From a virus, in the IMG/VR virus record IMGVR_UViG_3300005613_000006, positions 1 to 64,000 of that record: a DNA stretch of 64,000 bases; one strand, 5' to 3'. The stretch's first letter is position 1; each line of letters opens with the position of its first letter. Below, piece by piece: positions 2,632 through 30,233 of the stretch. A model generated the notes under the pieces. The model saw nothing but the letters and a program-made list of their open reading frames with translations. It searched no databases and was not told where the DNA came from. Made by a program: the position numbers and the translations under genes.

Positions 2632-2915
2632 AGTCCCAACGCCTCTTTCAAATCCACCATTTCGTAATCTGGCGCACAACAGCAATCGGCGTCGTTCTGT
2701 GACACATGACGAACGCGAGACTTGCCGACCAGTTCCTTGACCATTTCAACCACGGCTTCGGCCTTCTCACAACCCTTGTCGTGATAGTAGTCACCAAACT
2801 GTCGTATACACTTGCCGTTAACGAATACGGAGATTCCACAATAGTCGCCCCCACAATCTTCGTCGTCGGGGTCATGGTGGATGACCACTTTAATATCGGT
2901 GACCTTTTTTCCCAT
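2628..2915 (-). CDS. Hypothetical protein, 95 aa
   Basis: Starts M-G-K-K-V-T-D-I-K-V-V-I-H-H-D; a run of acidic residues and cysteines (D-P-D-D-E-D-C-G-G-D-Y-C) is followed by a strand-like G-I-S-V-F-V-N-G-K-C and a helix; D-C-C-C-A-P lies near the end. AGGAAT precedes the ATG. No family recognised. Coupled by ATGA overlap to the following gene. Confidence 0.6.
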   Translation of the reverse strand: MGKKVTDIKVVIHHDPDDEDCGGDYCGISVFVNGKCIRQFGDYYHDKGCEKAEAVVEMVKELVGKSRVRHVSQNDADCCCAPDYEMVDLKEALGL

Positions 2916-2962
2916 TTTCAATTCCTGTTCTATTTGTTTTCAAAATCCGGCAATTACTCGTC

Positions 2963-3211
2963 TTAGCTGTTGCAAGCTAATGGATAATCACAGATTGGTT
3001 CTTGCTCACAAGTGTCGCAAGGTGGTTTCAAATCCTTCACTTCCCCCTTTTTCCTTATCATTAAACACACCCCATCCCTCCATCCATCTCCCCACCATGC
3101 CCACTCATTAGTACCAACAGCGTGAGGATTGTCTTCCTCGCCCTTTCGAGCAGCAAGCCAACCGGCCCGATAGCAGCGGTGCAGGGGATGGTCAGAATTT
3201 TCGTATGGCAT
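2963..3211 (-). CDS. Ribosome-modulation-factor-like protein, 82 aa
   Basis: The stretch Y-R-A-G-W-L-A-A-R-K-G (residues 14-24) followed by N-P-H and W-W-G-D-G-W-R-D-G (39-47) follows the pattern of ribosome modulation factor (Rmf)-type domains, which in bacteria bind 70S ribosomes and promote inactive dimers. Two more CxxC-type cysteine pairs follow in the tail. The ATG at 3211 was chosen because GAGGAAAA precedes it. First gene of the long leftward operon behind the promoter at 3351-3378. It lies back to back with the candidate structured RNA at 3442. Ribosome binding is inferred from similarity only. Confidence 0.65.
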   Translation of the reverse strand: MPYENSDHPLHRCYRAGWLAARKGEEDNPHAVGTNEWAWWGDGWRDGVCLMIRKKGEVKDLKPPCDTCEQEPICDYPLACNS

Positions 3212-3350
3212 GACTACTTTTCCTCGGTTTTCACCACTGTCTGTTACAACAAGGAGATTAAACGCCAATTAACCCTTTAACTGGCTGTCTGGGCTGGAAC
3301 GGACGGCCCCGAAAGGGGGTCAACCGCTGTCATAAATTGTCCGGTAGTGT

Positions 3351-3378
3351 AGTATAGCACAGGATTCTAAGTTGTCAA
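3351..3378 (-). promoter_or_regulatory. Sigma-70 promoter, leftward
   Basis: On the - strand: TTGACA, 16-bp spacer, TATACT, with TGTGC directly before the -10. Drives the operon 3211 to beyond base 1. Confidence 0.8.
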
Positions 3379-3409
3379 TCGCTTTTCTCCAAAAAAAATG
3401 TAGGGAAGG

Positions 3410-3438
3410 TTGACAAGATAGGAGGTCCAGGCTATACA
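3410..3438 (+). promoter_or_regulatory. Sigma-70 promoter, rightward, for non-coding RNA
   Basis: TTGACA at 3410-3415, 17-bp spacer, TATACA at 3433-3438. There is no reading frame behind it for over 700 bases, only hairpins and tRNA genes. Confidence 0.7.
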
Positions 3439-3441
3439 TAC

Positions 3442-3795
3442 TTAGGAGGAAAAATCCTCTTACAAGCCAAACCAGCAAACGGCAACTGAAATCGGGCGGG
3501 CTGGCCGACATTCGTGGTGTTCCACGTCATAACGAGCCCCCTGTAAGAGCCCCTAAATCCTCGGGAGTGCGGATAACCCTGGCCCGAGGCTCGATGTACG
3601 TAAAGGAGGCTAAAGCCTCTAGCCCTGTGGGTGTACCTCGGGAAGTCGCCTAAGCGGCCCTCTCTTTTTTGAGGCCGTAAGGTGCCAGGGGGAGTCTCTG
3701 TAGTTATATCGGGGCTGTTAGGAAAAATTGGTTTTTGGAGCGGCTTCGCCGCAATGTAGGAGGAAAAGGGATGTAAGATACAACTAGTAAGTTGA
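3442..3795 (+). ncRNA. Candidate large structured RNA next to tRNA genes
   Basis: A non-coding stretch behind a good promoter with a dense set of hairpins. They are AGGAGG paired with CCTCT (3444-3460), CGTGG/CCACG (about 3513-3527), CCTCGGG/CCCGAGG (3559-3589), and a CGA-GTAC/GTAC-TCG stem enclosing GGAGGC/GCCTC (about 3592-3640). Further on come CGGCCCTC/GAGGCCG (3654-3677), GCGGC/GCCGC around a short loop (3740-3752) and CAACT/AGTTG (3781-3794). Three AGGAGG sequences occur in the RNA; two are sequestered in stems. The third (3758-3763) is followed by ATG-TAA, a start directly followed by a stop. It matches no RNA I can name (not RNase P RNA, tmRNA, 6S or group I intron signatures). Large phage RNAs such as GOLLD and ROOL also sit beside tRNAs, but identity is not shown. 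The 3' end is uncertain. Confidence 0.5.
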
Positions 3796-3815
3796 AAATA
3801 ATTCTTGCGTAGCCC

Positions 3816-3843
3816 TTGACTTTCTTGATTTGTGGTGTATACT
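3816..3843 (+). promoter_or_regulatory. Promoter for the tRNA-Gln pair
   Basis: TTGACT at 3816-3821, 16-bp spacer ending GTGGTG, TATACT at 3838-3843. It combines a -35 box with the GGTG-TATA feature of the rightward promoter family. Confidence 0.7.
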
Positions 3844-3909
3844 ATATTGTAGGAGCGAGGCTGGGTGTAATTTCTACGGGTAGCCCGCTAAGACCTTGTT
3901 CCTCTTTTT

Positions 3910-3982
3910 GGCCTTGTAGTGTAAAGGCAGCACGACTGACTTTGAATCAGTCAGAGGTTGGGTTCAAATCCCCCCGAGGCTT
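3910..3982 (+). tRNA. tRNA-Gln (anticodon TTG)
   Basis: A cloverleaf can be drawn: 7-bp acceptor with two wobbles, anticodon stem ACTGA/TCAGT with loop CTTTGAA (anticodon TTG, T33 present), T loop TTCAAAT. The T stem is weak (TTGGG against CCCCC leaves two mismatches). Discriminator base T. Lies 62 bases before the second Gln tRNA, in the same transcript. Confidence 0.7.
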
Positions 3983-4043
3983 CTGGAGGCTCCGCTTCCC
4001 CAATTTCCCTTCGGCCCGCTCCCCTGCCACAAAGGGGGCATAT

Positions 4044-4114
4044 TGCCCGGTAGTGTAGTGGTAACACGCTGGTCTCTGGAACCAGAAATGTAAGTTCGAT
4101 TCTTACTCGGGCGG
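4044..4114 (+). tRNA. tRNA-Gln (anticodon CTG)
   Basis: Starts with T as bacterial tRNA-Gln does; acceptor TGCCCGG/TCGGGCG, anticodon stem CTGGT/ACCAG with loop CTCTGGA (anticodon CTG), T arm GTAAG-TTCGATT-CTTAC, discriminator G. All expected invariant bases are present. Confidence 0.9.
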
Positions 4115-4130
4115 CTTAATTCAGAGTCAA

Positions 4131-4150
4131 TTTGGTGTATAATATAGTAG
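4131..4150 (+). promoter_or_regulatory. Rightward-family promoter of HNH gene
   Basis: TTTGGTG directly before TATAAT (4138-4143), then ATAGTAGG. No -35 box. The same motif occurs before another HNH gene (13628) and before structural genes. Confidence 0.7.
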
Positions 4151-4162
4151 GAGAAATCCACT

Positions 4163-4561
4163 ATGAAAATATGCACCAGTTGTCACGAAGAAAAGCCGAA
4201 GTCGGCTTTCTCAAAAAATGCGCGTCGAAAAGACGGGCTTCAAACCGTTTGCAAACAATGCAAGCGTCTATACAATCGCTCTTATTACACCAGTCATAAA
4301 CAAGAGCATCTGGATAAAAACACTCGCATTCGCCAACGCAATCGGGCCTTTCTATCCGAGGTCAAGTCTAATAGTTGCTGTGCCGAGTGTGGTGAACATC
4401 ATCCTGCCACCCTACAGTTTCACCATTTAGATGGAACCGACAAGGACGAGACTATTTCTACTCTCTGCAATAGCCTAGCCTCTATCAATCGCATCAAGGC
4501 TGAGATGGCCAAGTGTATCATTTTGTGCGCCAACTGTCATGCTATTGAACATTGGGGGTAG
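4163..4561 (+). CDS. HNH homing endonuclease, 132 aa
   Basis: N-terminal zinc knuckles (C-T-S-C, C-K-Q-C) are followed by an HNH core: C-A-E-C-G-E-H-H, then L-Q-F-H-H-L-D-G and C-I-I-L-C-A-N-C-H. This is the beta-beta-alpha metal nuclease arrangement of free-standing phage HNH endonucleases, which nick or cut DNA and spread by homing. AGGAGAAA precedes the ATG. Its own promoter and opposite orientation to its neighbours mark it as an insertion in the leftward region. Confidence 0.85.
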   Translation: MKICTSCHEEKPKSAFSKNARRKDGLQTVCKQCKRLYNRSYYTSHKQEHLDKNTRIRQRNRAFLSEVKSNSCCAECGEHHPATLQFHHLDGTDKDETISTLCNSLASINRIKAEMAKCIILCANCHAIEHWG

Positions 4562-4589
4562 TACCTTTGGCCTGCAAGCAAATTCCATC

Positions 4590-4660
4590 CAGACTACCTC
4601 TCCTACATTTTTGCTGACTACCATCTATTGCCAGACTTCTCGGGCTGGTTGGGGTATGAC
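4590..4660. repeat. Dispersed repeat, second family, copy A
   Basis: Shares with 5902-5965 and 11749-11806 the - strand pattern GTCTGG, about 12 bases, TAGTCAGC-AAAAT, with a CCC-ATCC/CCAGCCC stretch before it. This copy lies between the end of the HNH gene and the terminator at 4708. Confidence 0.55.
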
Positions 4661-4707
4661 AACAGACTGCTCCCCAGACCCGCCTTTCTAACCACGGCGT
4701 ATGGGGT

Positions 4708-4744
4708 AATAAGAAACCCCCAAGCGGCGTCCCGCCAGGGGGTT
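4708..4744 (-). terminator. Rho-independent terminator
   Basis: On the - strand AACCCCC pairs with GGGGGTT around an inner GGCG/CGCC hairpin and is followed by TTTCTTATT. It ends the operon 5742-4753. Confidence 0.85.
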
Positions 4745-4752
4745 AGTCACGT

Positions 4753-5028
4753 TTAGCCAGGGTGACCGGCCCTGTCAACCAACTGCTCACCTTTCGGGAG
4801 CATGTCACTCAGGTTCTTTTCCCACTTCATCATGGGTGTCGGAACCTTCAAATTCACAGTCTCTTCTTCGACCTCATTTCCAATCTTGAGGCCCTCGATA
4901 AAGGCAGTATACCACACCAGTTGTCTCCCACCCGGAACGCCGCGTTTATAAAACCGGCCTCCGAGGTAGTAACCTACATCAGTGGTGAAGACACCATCGG
5001 GGGTTAGTCGTACAGTGGTGACTTTCAT
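4753..5028 (-). CDS. Hypothetical protein, 91 aa
   Basis: Starts M-K-V-T-T-V-R-L-T-P-D-G-V-F, beta-rich N-terminus and a helical, charged C-terminus. The ATG overlaps the upstream stop as ATGA and GGAGG lies before it, so the start is firm. No family recognised. Last gene before a terminator. Confidence 0.65.
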   Translation of the reverse strand: MKVTTVRLTPDGVFTTDVGYYLGGRFYKRGVPGGRQLVWYTAFIEGLKIGNEVEEETVNLKVPTPMMKWEKNLSDMLPKGEQLVDRAGHPG

Positions 5029-10575: not shown

Positions 10576-10646
10576 AGGGAAAGGTGGGAATCGAACTCAC
10601 AACCTATTGGTTAACGGCCAATCGCTTGCCTTTCAGCTTCACTCCC
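10576..10646 (-). tRNA. tRNA-Asn (anticodon GTT)
   Basis: Acceptor GGGAGTG/CTTTCCC with one mismatch, anticodon stem ATTGG/CCAAT, loop CCGTTAA, T arm GTGAG-TTCGATT-CCCAC. Position 33 is C instead of the near-invariant T. The 5' end overlaps the last bases of the HNH gene. Confidence 0.75.
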
Positions 10647-24566: not shown

Positions 24567-25365
24567 ACTTAGTGCCGACGAAGTACAGTTTATCCGTGAC
24601 AATCTGGACACGATGAGTGATGAAGAGATTGGGAAACGGCTTCGCCGCTCTCCTTCTCTCGTCGCTAAATATCGTGGCCAAGAGCCCGAGGCTCAGCGTG
24701 AAGATGACCGCGACCCCATCATAGCGGAGCTACACGCCAAACATTTCTGGCCCGACATCAAAAAGGTGTTGCTGGTTACAGAGATTTCTTTCTTTGAGCA
24801 AGAATGGGCCAAGCTGATTCACCAATTTCAAACCAATGAAATTGTGGCCACTGACGAAAGTATGATACGAGACCTCATTGTTGAGGACATTATGTACTTG
24901 AGGGCGTTGAAAGAGCGTCGTCACGTCATGGTTGAAATCAGCGAACTAGAGCGACAGCTTGAGGTAGAACAGGCTAAGCCGCGAGAACAACGCAATGAGG
25001 CACTAGAGGCTTCAATTCAAACACAGATAACGGCCTTGCTACAGGCCCTACCAACGCTCACCGCAGAGCAAACCAAACATGCGGAGCGCAAAGATGCCAA
25101 GCTGAATCAGTTGAAGGCTACCCGTTCCGCGCGGTTTAAGCAAATAGCCGAAAGCCGCAAGAACTTCTTTGAGTTGACTAAGGAATTAGATACTCGCGTC
25201 AGCCGTGAGAAGGAAGGTCGCTGGATGGAACTTATGCAACAAGGAGGAGACAAGGTGAAGGAGGATTGGGAAGAGTTGCATGAGTATGCAGATGGTACAG
25301 TGGACAGACCTTTGTTGACGCCAGAGGCGGTATTAGCAGAGGATGATAAAGGAGAAGAAGAATGA
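24538..25365 (+). CDS. Probable terminase small subunit, 275 aa
   Basis: N-terminal helix-turn-helix (D-E-V-Q-F-I-R-D-N-L-D-T-M-S-D-E-E-I-G-K), then long coiled-coil-like helices and an acidic tail. Small terminase subunits combine a DNA-binding HTH with a helical oligomerisation core and lie near the large subunit gene; here two genes intervene. AGGGAACATT precedes the ATG. Identification rests on layout and position. Confidence 0.6.
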   Translation: MAKTNLKRGKLSADEVQFIRDNLDTMSDEEIGKRLRRSPSLVAKYRGQEPEAQREDDRDPIIAELHAKHFWPDIKKVLLVTEISFFEQEWAKLIHQFQTNEIVATDESMIRDLIVEDIMYLRALKERRHVMVEISELERQLEVEQAKPREQRNEALEASIQTQITALLQALPTLTAEQTKHAERKDAKLNQLKATRSARFKQIAESRKNFFELTKELDTRVSREKEGRWMELMQQGGDKVKEDWEELHEYADGTVDRPLLTPEAVLAEDDKGEEE

Positions 25366-26465
25366 AGGCCATAATTACTGGAGTGACGGGACAAGATGGA
25401 AGCTATTTAGCGGAGCTTTTGGTGGAGAAAGGGTATGATGTTGTTGGGATAGCTCGGCGCAGCAGTACAGATAATCGCCAAAGGTTGCGAGGTCTGAAAG
25501 ACAAGCCTAACTTCCGTGTTGTCGAGGGTGACGTAGGTGACCCTATTTCAATGGATGGCATCATACGGGATAATCCAGATGTCGATGAGGTGTACAACCT
25601 TGCAGCACAAAGTCATGTTGGCACCAGCTTCAAACAGCCAGTGTACACCTGGGATGTAAATGCCAAAGGCCCAGTGTATATCATGGATGCCATCACGAAC
25701 TATGCTCCACATGCGAGGTTCTACCAAGCGAGTACAAGCGAGTTGTTTGGAAACAACTTTAGTGTGGTAGCCGAGCCATTTGGTATTAAGGTGCCAGTGG
25801 TGTCATGCAAGAACGTACAATGCTTTCAGAATGAGACAACTCACTTTGACCCTCAATCTCCCTACGCTGTCGCCAAGCGCGATGCGCATGACATGGTTAA
25901 AATTTACAGAGAAAGAGGGCTCTGGGCCTGCGCGGGCATTCTCTTTAACCATGAGAGCCCAAGGCGGGGCTCAGAATTCGTCACACGCAAAGTGACCCAG
26001 TGGCTTGGGAAGTTCCGACCCTGGTGGTACGAGGCCCGTCTGAAAGAGGAGATTTCGGCTGCGATTCCATACATCCAATGCGAGAAAAGCGGAGAGAAGT
26101 TTCCAAAGCTACGCCTTGGTAATCTGGAGGCGTGTAGAGACTGGGGTTATGCTCCTGATTATGTACAGGGCATGTGGGCAATGATGCAGCAAGATAAACC
26201 AAGAGACTTTGTTCTTGCTACTGGTGAAACACATGGCGTTGAGGAGTTTGTAGAAGAGGCGTTTCATGCAGCGGGAATTCGCCAATGGCGTCGATATATC
26301 TACATTGACCCAGAGTTCTATCGCCCCTGTGAAGTGAACTTCCTACATGGTGATGCTAGCTTGGCGCGTAAGGTATTAGGCTGGGAGCCTAGCGTTACTT
26401 TCAAAGAGTTGGTACGCATCATGGTAAATGCAGACAGGCCAAATGAATGTCTAAGTACACGATAA
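25362..26465 (+). CDS. gmd: GDP-mannose 4,6-dehydratase
   Basis: G-V-T-G-Q-D-G-S-Y-L-A-E (residues 7-18) is the NADP-binding start of GDP-mannose dehydratases. S-T-S-E-L-F-G (about 124-130) supplies the catalytic Thr/Ser-Glu and S-P-Y-A-V-A-K (166-172) the YxxxK pair; L-F-N-H-E-S-P-R-R-G-S-E-F-V-T-R-K follows as in the family. The enzyme turns GDP-mannose into GDP-4-keto-6-deoxymannose, the precursor of fucose, rhamnose and related sugars. 367 residues is the normal length. No partner (fucose synthase, glycosyltransferase) is visible, so the product must feed a host or distant phage pathway. Overlaps both neighbours. Confidence 0.92.
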   Translation: MKAIITGVTGQDGSYLAELLVEKGYDVVGIARRSSTDNRQRLRGLKDKPNFRVVEGDVGDPISMDGIIRDNPDVDEVYNLAAQSHVGTSFKQPVYTWDVNAKGPVYIMDAITNYAPHARFYQASTSELFGNNFSVVAEPFGIKVPVVSCKNVQCFQNETTHFDPQSPYAVAKRDAHDMVKIYRERGLWACAGILFNHESPRRGSEFVTRKVTQWLGKFRPWWYEARLKEEISAAIPYIQCEKSGEKFPKLRLGNLEACRDWGYAPDYVQGMWAMMQQDKPRDFVLATGETHGVEEFVEEAFHAAGIRQWRRYIYIDPEFYRPCEVNFLHGDASLARKVLGWEPSVTFKELVRIMVNADRPNECLSTR

Positions 26466-26944
26466 TTCGCGACACGCGAGAGAAAGAAAAGAAAGGCTGG
26501 CAATGGCGCAAGTCCATGTACTGTGAAGGTACGGTTGACGGCACCATGAAGACAGGAGACTACACGTTGGAAGGATATGAAGGAGTCCTTACCATTGAAC
26601 GTAAGGGCAGAATCTCAGAGTTCGCCAAGAACATCAATGAGGCTAGGTTTGGTAAGGAATTGGAGCGCATGACGCAGTTCAAACACGCTTACGTAATCCT
26701 TGAGTTTACGATGCGTGACCTATTGAACTATCCAGTGGGCTCAGGAATACCGCGACATAAGTGGCGCTACTTGAAATTCAAGGGGCCGTTCATTTTGAAG
26801 AAGCTGACAGAGATGATGAGGGACTACCCAACAATTCATTTTGTGTTGGCTGGAGATGCGGGAAAAGAGACAGCATCAAGTATTTTCAAACGCATCGTGG
26901 AGAGTGAACGTGCCAACTCTGATTCAACCGGAGGCGAAAGCTAA
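26447..26944 (+). CDS. ERCC4-type nuclease, 165 aa
   Basis: I-I-R-D-T-R-E-K-E-K-K-G-W (6-18), G-D-Y-T-L-E-G-Y-E (about 37-45) and I-E-R-K-G-R (50-55) follow the GDX(n)ERKxxxD core of the ERCC4/XPF nuclease fold, which cuts branched DNA. No helix-hairpin-helix domain. Placed between gmd and the large terminase gene and overlapping both, it may process DNA before packaging or resolve recombination junctions; the role is inferred. Confidence 0.8.
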   Translation: MSKYTIIRDTREKEKKGWQWRKSMYCEGTVDGTMKTGDYTLEGYEGVLTIERKGRISEFAKNINEARFGKELERMTQFKHAYVILEFTMRDLLNYPVGSGIPRHKWRYLKFKGPFILKKLTEMMRDYPTIHFVLAGDAGKETASSIFKRIVESERANSDSTGGES

Positions 26945-29900
26945 ACGCGCCCAACGCAAGTCGCAAGAACAGCGACTACAGCAACTCATTGATGAGTATT
27001 ACATCGGCCTTGGCGATACAACCGAGAAACAAGTCCAAAATATATTGTTGGACACAGAACACGCAGACATAGAGCATCCCATCTACGAGATTCTCGATGT
27101 CATGCGGCAGCCACAGTATTTCTCATACACCTGTCGCCATCTACTCAACATAGAACTGATTCCATTCCAAGTCGCGATTCTACAAGAGTTGTGGCACCGC
27201 AAATTCCCCATGCTCATTATGACCCGTGGTGGAGGCAAGACTTGGATGCTGGCTCTATACGCACTGCTACGTGCCCTGTTTGAACAGGGTACGAAAGTGG
27301 TTGTGGTAGGTGCCGCTTTCCGCCAATCTAAACTCATCTTTGAGTATATGGAACAGTTCTGGCGAGGCAGTCCAATTCTACGAAGTATAGTAGGGATGGG
27401 CAAGCATCAAGGCCCCAAGCGAGACATTGACCGCTGCAACTTCTATGTGGGCGAGTCAGAGATTATCGCTATTCCATTGGGTGATGGTTGTTTGTACACT
27501 AATACTTTAACAACAAACAAAAATGGCTTTGGTTATATTAAACACCCAGCAGAATCCATTTGGGGTAACGGTGAATTTCGTGTTGTAGATGAACATTATA
27601 ATAATGGTGTGAAGCCAACCAAAATTATTAAGACCAACAAGGGTTATGGTTTTGAAGGCACCCACAATCATAAAATGAAAGTGCTACGTAATGGCAGTAT
27701 AGATTTTGTTCGTAGTGACGAAATGGTGATTGGAGACCGTATACTTCTTGACCGCTCGCGTCGTTGGCATGATGGTGATTTTCAATGTACTGATGAACAA
27801 GCATATGCTCTTGGTCTAATGATTGGAGACGGGTGTTGGACTAGTATATATCAATTAAGATTTGCCACAACCACCCCAGGAGAATTTGTTCCATATTTAG
27901 ATTATGTAGCTAGCGGCAACGAGTGGACACAATTAGATGAACAACATTGGCAGTGTTGTGGTAAGGATAATATTAAGAAGTGGATTGATTTTTGGGAATT
28001 AAGAGAAGAATGTCGAACCAAAGACAAAACTTTGCCACCAAAAATTTTATCTGCTAGACAATCGGCAATGACCGCATGTCTACAAGGTCTCTTCGACACA
28101 GATGGACACGTACAAGTTCAAACAACCAAGGGAGGCATGGCCATTACTATTGGCTTCACTAACACCAGTCAGGAACTTGTCCGTCAAATGCAATATATCT
28201 TGTTACACTATGGCATTGTTGCGCATGTTAGTGATAGAGATAGGGATGAGAATTGGAATCATATTTATGAACTTATAATTACTGGTGCAGATGTCAAAAT
28301 CTTTGCAGAACAGATTGGGTTTCGCTTAAAACGTAAACAACAATTGCTTGAAGCTGCTATAGCCAACAAATCACGTTGGGTAAACGCTGACGATATTATT
28401 CCAGGCGTGTTGTCTGACATGGTGCGTATTGCAAGCCAATATCGTGTTCGATGGGGACACAGCAATGCAGATTCAACGGCATGTTCTGCATCTAAATTAC
28501 AAAACTATACCCAGGCCACACGTTCATTGGTGAATAAATTTTTGAATACCTATGGCCATATAGACGACCCACTTATAGCAAAACTACACATACTGAATGA
28601 CGATAACGTTTATTATGATACCATAACGTCCATCGCAGATGGAGAAGCCCACACCTACGACATGCATGTTCCAGACGGACACGAATATTGCGCCGATGGA
28701 TTCTTTAGTCACAACACCAAGATTCGTGGTCTCCGCGCCAACTACGTCCTGGCTGACGAATTTGCATCCATCCCACAGGAAATCTTTGAAGTCGTTATTA
28801 AGGGTTTCGCATCTGTATCCAGTAGCCCCGATGTAAGGGTGAAAGACTTTGGTAGGGTTGCAGCTTTGAAGATGTTGGGATATGATGAGCAAGCAGAGGC
28901 GGCAGAAGAGGAACTTGGTTTTGGCAACCAGACGGTTATCAGTGGAACGGCATACTACTCATTCAACCACTTCTACACTTATTGGAGGCGCTACAAGTCT
29001 ATCATAGAATCAAAGGGCGCAATCAATAGACTTGAGGAAATCTTCCACGGTGAAGTCCCCGAGGGTTTTGATTGGACCGATTACAGCGTCATCAGAGCGC
29101 CATACAAATGCCTACCACGCGGTTTCATGGACGAAACATCCGTCGCCCAATCCAAAGCTACTGTTCATCAATCTATCTACCAGATGGAATACGAGGCTTG
29201 CTTCGCTACCGATAGCGACGGATTTTTCAAGCGTAGTCTTATCGAATCATGTGTAACCAAGGAACCCGTCTTGTTGGCTAGCGGCCCAGTCCAATTCCAT
29301 GCTACTATTAGTGGTTCTCCCAATCTTCGCTACGTTTATGGCATTGACCCTGCTTCTGAAAAAGACAACTTTGCCATAGTAGTTTTGGAAATTCAGGGGG
29401 ACCATCGCCGCATTGTCTATTCCTGGTCTATCAATCGCCAAACACTTCGGGAACGCCTAAAGAACCAAGGCAAGAAACTAGACAAGTCGTTCTATTCCTA
29501 CTGTGCTAGAAAAATCAGACAGTTGATGAAGCGCTTTCCAACTGAGCATATCGGTATGGATACTCAAGGTGGTGGCATCGCCGTGATGGAAGCCCTGCAT
29601 GAAGAAGCCCAGATGGAAGAAAACGAAAGACCCCTGTGGCCATACATCAAACAGGGTGACAAGGATGTGTTCTGGTGGGAAGAAGCCAACAAGCCAACCG
29701 ATGGCGAACCTGGATTCCACTATCTCCACATGGTACAGTTTGCCCAGGCCAAGTTCACAGTGGATGCAAACCACGGCTTGCGTAAAGACTTTGAAGACAA
29801 GACGACCCTGTTTCCCTACTTTGACTCCGCTAGTATTGGTGAGGCGCTTACACAAGACAAGATTATGAATAGAGAATATGACACGATGGAAGACTGTGTT

Positions 29901-30233
29901 ATTGAAATCGAGGAGTTGAAAGACGAACTAGCAACTATTATCCATGACCAGACCAGTGGTGGCCGTGACCGCTGGGACACACCAGAAGTGAAACTGCCGG
30001 GCAACAAAAAGGGTAGGCTCCGAAAGGACCGCTATTCAGCCTTAGTGATAGCAAATATGGTCGCTAGAGTCATGGACCACGGGCTTGAAGGAACTCCGTG
30101 TCCATTTGTAGGCGGCTATGTAGGCCAGAAACGCGGTGGCCAGGGCGGCGGAAGCGGTCGCTTGTACGTAGGACCAGACCATTTGGTAAGCAAAATGACT
30201 GGACTCTATGGAAAAGGTGTGAGTCGCCAGTAA
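26910..30233 (+). CDS. terL: Terminase large subunit with intein
   Basis: GTG start with GGAGAG before it. Walker A R-G-G-G-K-T near residue 108; Walker B Y-V-L-A-D-E-F (about 611-617); nuclease motifs Y-G-I-D-P-A-S-E (about 810), H-I-G-M-D-T-Q (about 880) and R-Y-S-A-L-V-I-A-N-M (about 1040). It is the ATPase-nuclease that drives and cuts packaged DNA. Residues 194-602 are an intein inserted between I-P-L-G-D-G and T-K-I-R-G, just before the Walker B strand, leaving a mature protein of about 698 residues after splicing. The nuclease residues are present. Confidence 0.95.
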   Translation: MPTLIQPEAKAKRAQRKSQEQRLQQLIDEYYIGLGDTTEKQVQNILLDTEHADIEHPIYEILDVMRQPQYFSYTCRHLLNIELIPFQVAILQELWHRKFPMLIMTRGGGKTWMLALYALLRALFEQGTKVVVVGAAFRQSKLIFEYMEQFWRGSPILRSIVGMGKHQGPKRDIDRCNFYVGESEIIAIPLGDGCLYTNTLTTNKNGFGYIKHPAESIWGNGEFRVVDEHYNNGVKPTKIIKTNKGYGFEGTHNHKMKVLRNGSIDFVRSDEMVIGDRILLDRSRRWHDGDFQCTDEQAYALGLMIGDGCWTSIYQLRFATTTPGEFVPYLDYVASGNEWTQLDEQHWQCCGKDNIKKWIDFWELREECRTKDKTLPPKILSARQSAMTACLQGLFDTDGHVQVQTTKGGMAITIGFTNTSQELVRQMQYILLHYGIVAHVSDRDRDENWNHIYELIITGADVKIFAEQIGFRLKRKQQLLEAAIANKSRWVNADDIIPGVLSDMVRIASQYRVRWGHSNADSTACSASKLQNYTQATRSLVNKFLNTYGHIDDPLIAKLHILNDDNVYYDTITSIADGEAHTYDMHVPDGHEYCADGFFSHNTKIRGLRANYVLADEFASIPQEIFEVVIKGFASVSSSPDVRVKDFGRVAALKMLGYDEQAEAAEEELGFGNQTVISGTAYYSFNHFYTYWRRYKSIIESKGAINRLEEIFHGEVPEGFDWTDYSVIRAPYKCLPRGFMDETSVAQSKATVHQSIYQMEYEACFATDSDGFFKRSLIESCVTKEPVLLASGPVQFHATISGSPNLRYVYGIDPASEKDNFAIVVLEIQGDHRRIVYSWSINRQTLRERLKNQGKKLDKSFYSYCARKIRQLMKRFPTEHIGMDTQGGGIAVMEALHEEAQMEENERPLWPYIKQGDKDVFWWEEANKPTDGEPGFHYLHMVQFAQAKFTVDANHGLRKDFEDKTTLFPYFDSASIGEALTQDKIMNREYDTMEDCVIEIEELKDELATIIHDQTSGGRDRWDTPEVKLPGNKKGRLRKDRYSALVIANMVARVMDHGLEGTPCPFVGGYVGQKRGGQGGGSGRLYVGPDHLVSKMTGLYGKGVSRQ
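27489..28715 (+). mobile_element. Intein with LAGLIDADG homing endonuclease, 409 aa
   Basis: Begins with Cys (C-L-Y-T-N-T-L), has block B G-T-H-N-H-K-M, endonuclease motifs L-G-L-M-I-G-D-G and L-Q-G-L-F-D-T-D-G, and ends Y-D-M-H-V-P-D-G-H-E-Y-C, then F-F-S-H-N; the +1 extein residue is Thr. All residues needed for protein splicing (Cys1, block B Thr/His, penultimate His, final Asn) are present, and both Asp of the endonuclease motifs are kept, so it looks active for splicing and homing. It is visibly more AT-rich than the flanking exteins, as expected for a recent arrival. Confidence 0.95.

Follow-up and report, generated by a model that had tools for sequence, protein, structure and literature searches.

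A proposed phage RNA with a conserved core beside two tRNA genes

The window analysed here, a stretch of 64,000 nucleotides (nt), is the left part of a virus record of 172,878 bases (IMG/VR record IMGVR_UViG_3300005613_000006) that carries about 40 transfer RNA (tRNA) genes and one gene resembling transfer-messenger RNA (tmRNA). Near its start, a gene-free stretch of about 350-370 nt separates a rightward promoter at 3410 from the promoter of two tRNA-Gln genes, and no plausible plus-strand gene and no coding potential were found between 3439 and about 3815. A sequence-only reading of this DNA had described a promoter, about 350 gene-free bases, many stems, three AGGAGG sequences and two tRNA genes, all of which are present in the sequence, and had proposed a structured phage RNA. 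It had held that relatives keeping the sequence without the stems would speak against such an RNA; the relatives do the opposite, keeping the stems while the sequence changes. The defining part is a conserved pseudoknotted core of 134 nt (Table 1), rather than the AGGAGG sequences on which that reading had laid its emphasis. Judged by comparison of its members, the core keeps its shape, not its sequence, in two unrelated phage groups, one of large and one of temperate phages; because the shape is kept in both and Rfam holds no match, it looks like a new viral RNA class.

The consensus of the core runs, in order, through the 5' strand of stem S1 (7 base pairs, bp), AGUG, CCCUGG, the 3' strand of S1 (S1'), GGGAAGUCG, hairpin P3 and GCCAGGGGG, and the pseudoknot S2 is formed by CCUGG pairing with CCAGG. 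The conserved fold, as shown by comparison of the members, comprises S1, S2, P3, the invariant AGUG and GGGAAGUCG and, in the large phages only, hairpin P4. In the window, the loop of S1 holds the invariant AGTG (3566-3569) and the 5' strand of S2 (CCCTGG, 3577-3582), and the 3' strand of S2 falls within the conserved GCCAGGGGG (3684-3692). P4, which lies between S1' and GGGAAGTCG in three large phages, pairs CTCGA (3590-3594) with TCGGG (3638-3642), has inner GTAC/GTAC pairs, and encloses a further hairpin (3605-3620) with an AGGAGG at 3604. In every member S1 has exactly 7 bp, AGTG follows directly on its 5' strand, and the S2 strand (CCTGG; CTGG in kin record G004) abuts its 3' strand. All of the features that define the class (7-bp S1, AGUG, an S2 strand abutting S1', GGGAAGUCG, P3 and an S2 partner) are found in the core of the window, which covariance model R2, trained in part on this same core, scores at 37 bits (E 1.4e-5 for the genome).

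Table 1. Features at the locus, in window positions
Feature	Positions	Strand	Basis
Small gene with weak RMF resemblance, divergent first gene	2963..3211	-	PF04957
Divergent promoter TTGACA-16-TATACT for leftward genes	3351..3378	-	promoter scan
Promoter of the RNA, TTGACA-17-TATACA	3410..3438	+	sequence and script; syntenic promoter in G004
5' hairpin immediately after promoter, carries AGGAGG 3444	3443..3462	+	predicted fold
Conserved pseudoknotted RNA core, 134 nt	3559..3692	+	model R2, motif scan, pair counts
Stem S1: CCTCGGG 3559-3565 with CCCGAGG 3583-3589	3559..3589	+	pair counts
Hairpin P4, large-phage group only	3590..3642	+	compensated outer pairs among window, G004 and G061
Invariant GGGAAGTCG	3640..3648	+	comparison of members
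Hairpin P3	3649..3682	+	pair counts
S2 3' strand CCAGGG, pairs with 3577-3582 (pseudoknot)	3685..3690	+	complementarity, prediction, control scan
GCGGC-TTC-GCCGC hairpin 3' of core	3740..3752	+	sequence and predicted fold only
AGGAGG, then ATG-TAA at 3771-3776, 7 nt after AGGAGG	3758..3776	+	sequence
Separate promoter of tRNA-Gln genes, TTGACT-16-TATACT	3816..3843	+	promoter scan
tRNA-Gln (TTG)	3910..3983	+	
tRNA-Gln (CTG)	4044..4115	+	

Members in large and temperate phages

For the capsid protein of the source virus, viral contigs supplied 60 relatives (62-81% identity) and the phage records none; the comparison is built on distant kin, and the collections omit the source record and perhaps near relatives too. 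Gene-order mapping showed that the site downstream of a gp88-like gene corresponds in the kin records G002 and G004, which share with the window a pair of divergent promoters (present in G061 as well) and, up to a further promoter, some 400 bases that hold no gene. The region of G004 reads AAATCCTTGGGAGTG...CTGGCCCAAGGCTC...GGGAAGTCG...TGCCAGGGGGA and its counterpart in the window AAATCCTCGGGAGTG...CTGGCCCGAGGCTC...GGGAAGTCG...TGCCAGGGGGA, and the sole difference inside the stem is compensated. The core occurs at the same promoter-driven place in G004 and in G061 (58.8 bits with model R1), two records with about 83% identity across their aligned parts. G002 is closer by its capsid (76%) and has at the same place (L075:14120-14536, minus strand) a promoter followed by some 400 bases free of genes, in which neither the motif scan nor the model found the core. 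Between promoter and core, G061 has a very basic open reading frame of 59 amino acids, ending in KRKRRRRK (approximately L182:2450-2660, minus strand), that is absent from the window and G004.

Viral contigs scanned for GGGAAGTCG...GCCAGGGGG yielded 30 stretches, one of them G061 and six, plus one truncated, from a second set of contigs. The contigs of this set that were examined carry genes for an integrase, a Sak4-type annealing protein, a DNA methyltransferase and replication initiation, and the element takes up a gap of some 240 bases immediately ahead of the replication-initiation gene, at no fewer than four clearly distinct loci. Conservation starts at ACATAGCCC, though the upstream gene of contig L188 differs from those of the others. 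No tRNA was found near the element in this group, so proximity to tRNA genes, to which the sequence-only reading had drawn attention, stands for the locus in the window but not as a trait of the class. In contig L179 (9555-9850, minus strand), a further 5' domain shows apparent compensated hairpins, GATTC/GAATC and CAGTAG/CTACTG, read by eye, and a GGAAGCGC motif resembling GGGAAGTCG.

Other candidates fell away. Two pattern matches (L173, L175) are within coding sequence and do not have the fold; L181 scores 24.9 bits but lacks AGTG and the S1 arrangement. A pattern run over a genome collection gave five matches, none confirmed (L208 scored 12.2 bits and the rest were absent from the model's list at E up to 1), and a weak model match in G055, one of these genomes, lacks the motif order. 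A pattern gave eight matches in samples of 385, 396 and 282 genomes, all without S1, and the model had none in a sampled, weak search of 398 bacterial genomes. Neither blastn of the stretch against the phage records and 42 kin records nor a 22-base exact pattern gave a match, and no description of the core RNA was found in the literature.

Covariation and a control scan

Pairing was counted in an alignment of seven distinct full-length members (near-copies and one truncated member are also known), trimmed of the variable joining region and the P3 loop, with one base before GCC dropped in three members. Standard pairs fill 98.4% of the pair cells. All seven pairs of S1 change on both sides while remaining 100% paired, as do, on both sides, the five outer pairs of P3 (5/5), and several S1 pairs differ between G004 and G061, all of them compensated. 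The covariation score is 0.728, compared to 0.225 +/- 0.044 for shuffled alignments and at most 0.14 for slid structures. S2 is 97.6% paired and nearly invariant. In the temperate-phage members S2 is predicted with a mean probability of 0.7-1.0 and S1 is not, and in G004 the reverse is seen; this pattern fits a pseudoknot, because a nested folding program shows only one arm of it.

All members except those of the window and G004 came from patterns that fixed parts of the motif, and that GGGAAGTCG and GCCAGGGGG look invariant is therefore partly a product of the search. A control scan fixed only AGTG, CCCTGG and GGGAAGTCG, leaving S1 and the S2 partner free, and gave 31 stretches: the seven known members and 24 others. 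Every one of the seven has an S1 of 7 bp and CCAGGG; the 24 others have between 0 and 5 bp in S1, lack CCAGGG within 90 bases and are not matched by the model. Nothing shows more clearly than this all-or-nothing division that the fold is real.

Folding energies speak less clearly. For 3440-3800 (361 nt) the folding energy is -132 kcal/mol (z = -2.26; 1 of 100 shuffles equally stable), and 3440-3910 gives z = -3.34 with none of 100 shuffles as stable; such scores alone are weak evidence, because the homologous stretch of G004, taken whole, folds no better than its shuffles. Modest scores of this kind are what a chance structure in a spacer would give, but the covariation and the control scan contradict that explanation and make it extremely improbable.

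A folded single-stranded DNA or a replication start, such as a primase or initiator site, is another reading, and in the temperate phages the element does neighbour replication genes. It is distinctly improbable: the cumulative GC-skew extremes of the source virus and G004 are not at the element, the large phages have a strong promoter directed into it, and P4, P3 and S2 contain U-G pairs. The U-G pair in P4 is shared by the three large phages and is more in keeping with RNA than with DNA. The strand of the core agrees with the direction of the promoter in the large phages and with that of the gene in L179.

Promoters, AGGAGG sequences and neighbouring genes

Promoters of the TTGACA-16/17-TATAAT type are numerous in the source phage, and the promoter at 3410, from which a transcript would be expected to start near 3445, fits them. 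A stricter scan, which found 12 promoter-like sites in 2900-4800 where shuffles had 1.8 +/- 1.3, missed it, since it demands T at position 6 and the -10 element here is TATACA. The 5' hairpin that follows was not found in G004 or G061.

The sequence-only reading had further suggested that the RNA perhaps touches ribosomes through the anti-Shine-Dalgarno sequence; such an RNA would titrate these sequences. Four copies of AGGAGG lie in 3410-3910 (at 3420, 3444, 3604 and 3758), the first within the promoter spacer; the three in the 361 nt of 3440-3800 compare to 0.22 expected in a dinucleotide simulation (P about 0.002), and the divergent first gene resembles ribosome modulation factor (RMF). That resemblance is weak (PF04957, 15.4 bits, E 0.02, below the cut-off of 27.9). 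Unrelated genes take its place in G004 and G061, a search with the protein gave no relative, the homologous RNAs of G004 and G061 have no AGGAGG, and the copies at 3444 and 3604 are both inside hairpins and paired in the predicted fold. The AGGAGG copies are outside the conserved elements. Ribosome contact loses support because kin neither keep the AGGAGG copies nor share the RMF-like neighbour, and we consider it very improbable. Start-stop minigenes of ATG-TAA behind a strong Shine-Dalgarno sequence can trap ribosomes. The ATG-TAA at 3771-3776, behind such a sequence, resembles them; this arrangement (3758-3776) is not conserved in kin.

Further observations were made in the source virus and its kin. 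The divergent tmRNA-like gene lies at L092:6690-6936 (minus strand; about 150690-150936 of the record; RF00023, 36.3 bits, gathering score 47, E 1e-12), and G002 has a clear tmRNA at L076:19017-19362. A protein encoded at L092:12923-14518 (minus strand), kept in G002, matches phrog_850, named RNA-binding protein, and is perhaps Ro60/TROVE-like; no Y RNA match was found near its gene. A wcaG RNA (RF01761, 47 bits, above the gathering score) lies at L092:2342-2441 (minus strand) between tRNA-Ala and tRNA-Glu genes. In the window, a tRNA at 10576-10646 (minus strand) was detected by Rfam (50 bits) and missed by ARAGORN, a gene at 780-1910 is saccharopine-dehydrogenase-like by Pfam match, the terminase large subunit (26841-30233) is split by an apparent intein whose insert matches other phrog families, and the gene directly before it (25362-26465) is GDP-mannose dehydratase-like by the look of its sequence only.

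Comparison with known RNAs

Rfam 15 was searched with 3380-4130 at E up to 10, a check that the sequence-only reading had called for, and only the tRNAs and two chance matches were found; the elements in L179, L188, L205 and L182 gave nothing at E up to 1. The core as a second tmRNA or a Y RNA has no support: the tmRNA model has no match in 3380-4130, and the source phage has its separate tmRNA-like gene. Neither the GOLLD nor the ROOL covariance model matches in the window at its gathering score, or in 3380-4130 at E up to 10, which bears out the earlier caution that membership in either class was not proven. GOLLD is a structured phage RNA without known function, often near tRNA genes, with many members over 800 nt (PMC12286853); the RNA described here is likewise structured and near tRNA genes, but its core is different and much smaller, in a gene-free stretch of about 370 nt. 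The ROOL RNA studied by cryo-electron microscopy, of 659 nt with several pseudoknots (PMC12286853), is larger as well, although both are structured, pseudoknotted phage RNAs near tRNAs. The stable RNAs C and D of phage T4 are alike in being tRNA-adjacent phage RNAs, a likeness of description and not of sequence, and nothing ties them to the core. These two are phage-encoded, lie beside tRNA genes, and have no known function.

In SAM-I type riboswitches, the pseudoknot joins the loop of one hairpin to a strand lying past the following hairpin or hairpins. The core is alike in this loop-to-distal-strand topology but has no sequence or family match to them, and the large phages have no gene at a fixed distance.

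In HDV-like (hepatitis delta virus-like) ribozymes the strands follow the order P1, P2, P3 hairpin, P1', P4, P2'. The core departs from this order in all members, its S2 5' strand abutting S1' with no hairpin between. The HDV-like theta ribozymes are pseudoknotted and lie beside phage tRNAs, at tRNA 3' ends with the cleavage site within 5 nt (PMC10879173), whereas the RNA of the window has a promoter of its own and precedes the tRNAs, and its core ends 218 nt before the nearest tRNA. A self-cleaving ribozyme of a new class, freeing the RNA or the tRNA transcript, would accord with the compact pseudoknot, the short invariant loops, the freely varying helices and this phage tRNA precedent; with the strand order against it, no Rfam ribozyme match, and more than 200 nt and a promoter between core and tRNA, it is improbable.

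Interpretation

We regard it as an evenly balanced proposition that this is a phage non-coding RNA with its own promoter, of a class absent from Rfam, that acts as RNA, probably in trans through its pseudoknot. In the large phages, a separate transcript of about 350-400 nt would be made early in infection from the RNA's own sigma-70-type promoter, separately from the tRNA operon. The temperate-phage RNA sits inside the replication operon and would be made from the operon transcript. Helices that vary freely around fixed loops and a fixed pseudoknot are what a rigid scaffold would show, and the core may be one that offers a binding surface (AGUG, GGGAAGUCG and the pseudoknot groove) to a single partner; this would most likely be a protein that the hosts of the two phage groups have in common. 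The RNA would work as RNA and in trans, a role favoured because the large phages give the RNA a separate promoter and have no gene following it at a fixed distance.

Several points weigh against this proposal. Transcription, timing, trans action and the protein partner are all things that we infer; S2 scarcely varies and is only 4 bp in G004, and its pairing rests on complementarity and thermodynamics, not covariation; the core is missing from most kin records; no gene next to the RNA is known to be common to both phage groups, so that no partner is pointed at; and the temperate-phage element ends about 25 nt before the start codon of the replication-initiation gene, which suits a cis role also. 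Riboswitch aptamers have fixed loops and free helices. The same pattern in the core, together with that position, would suit a control element of the next gene (a riboswitch, an attenuator or a translation control) in which the binding of a ligand or protein to the pseudoknot would switch the 3' region. We hold such a cis-acting element to be unlikely, although it deserves attention, as the window, G004 and G061 have no next gene at a fixed distance 3' of the core and a further promoter precedes the next gene or tRNA.

Returning to an RNA acting in trans, we would put a little short of even the broader possibility that the class, common to large tRNA-rich phages and temperate phages, is phage-specific, with a new pseudoknot fold, and is either a new ribozyme or an RNA with a trans target in the host that both groups encounter. 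Such a target could be RNA polymerase, a nuclease or a defence system, among others. Few classes of phage-encoded structured RNA are known, and the best known, GOLLD and ROOL, have no settled function. The core RNA is small and sharply defined and has strong covariation, and its function would be easier to test because temperate phages carry it, where it can be deleted or expressed at will. With the short consensus and the covariance model, anyone can look for the core in other phages.
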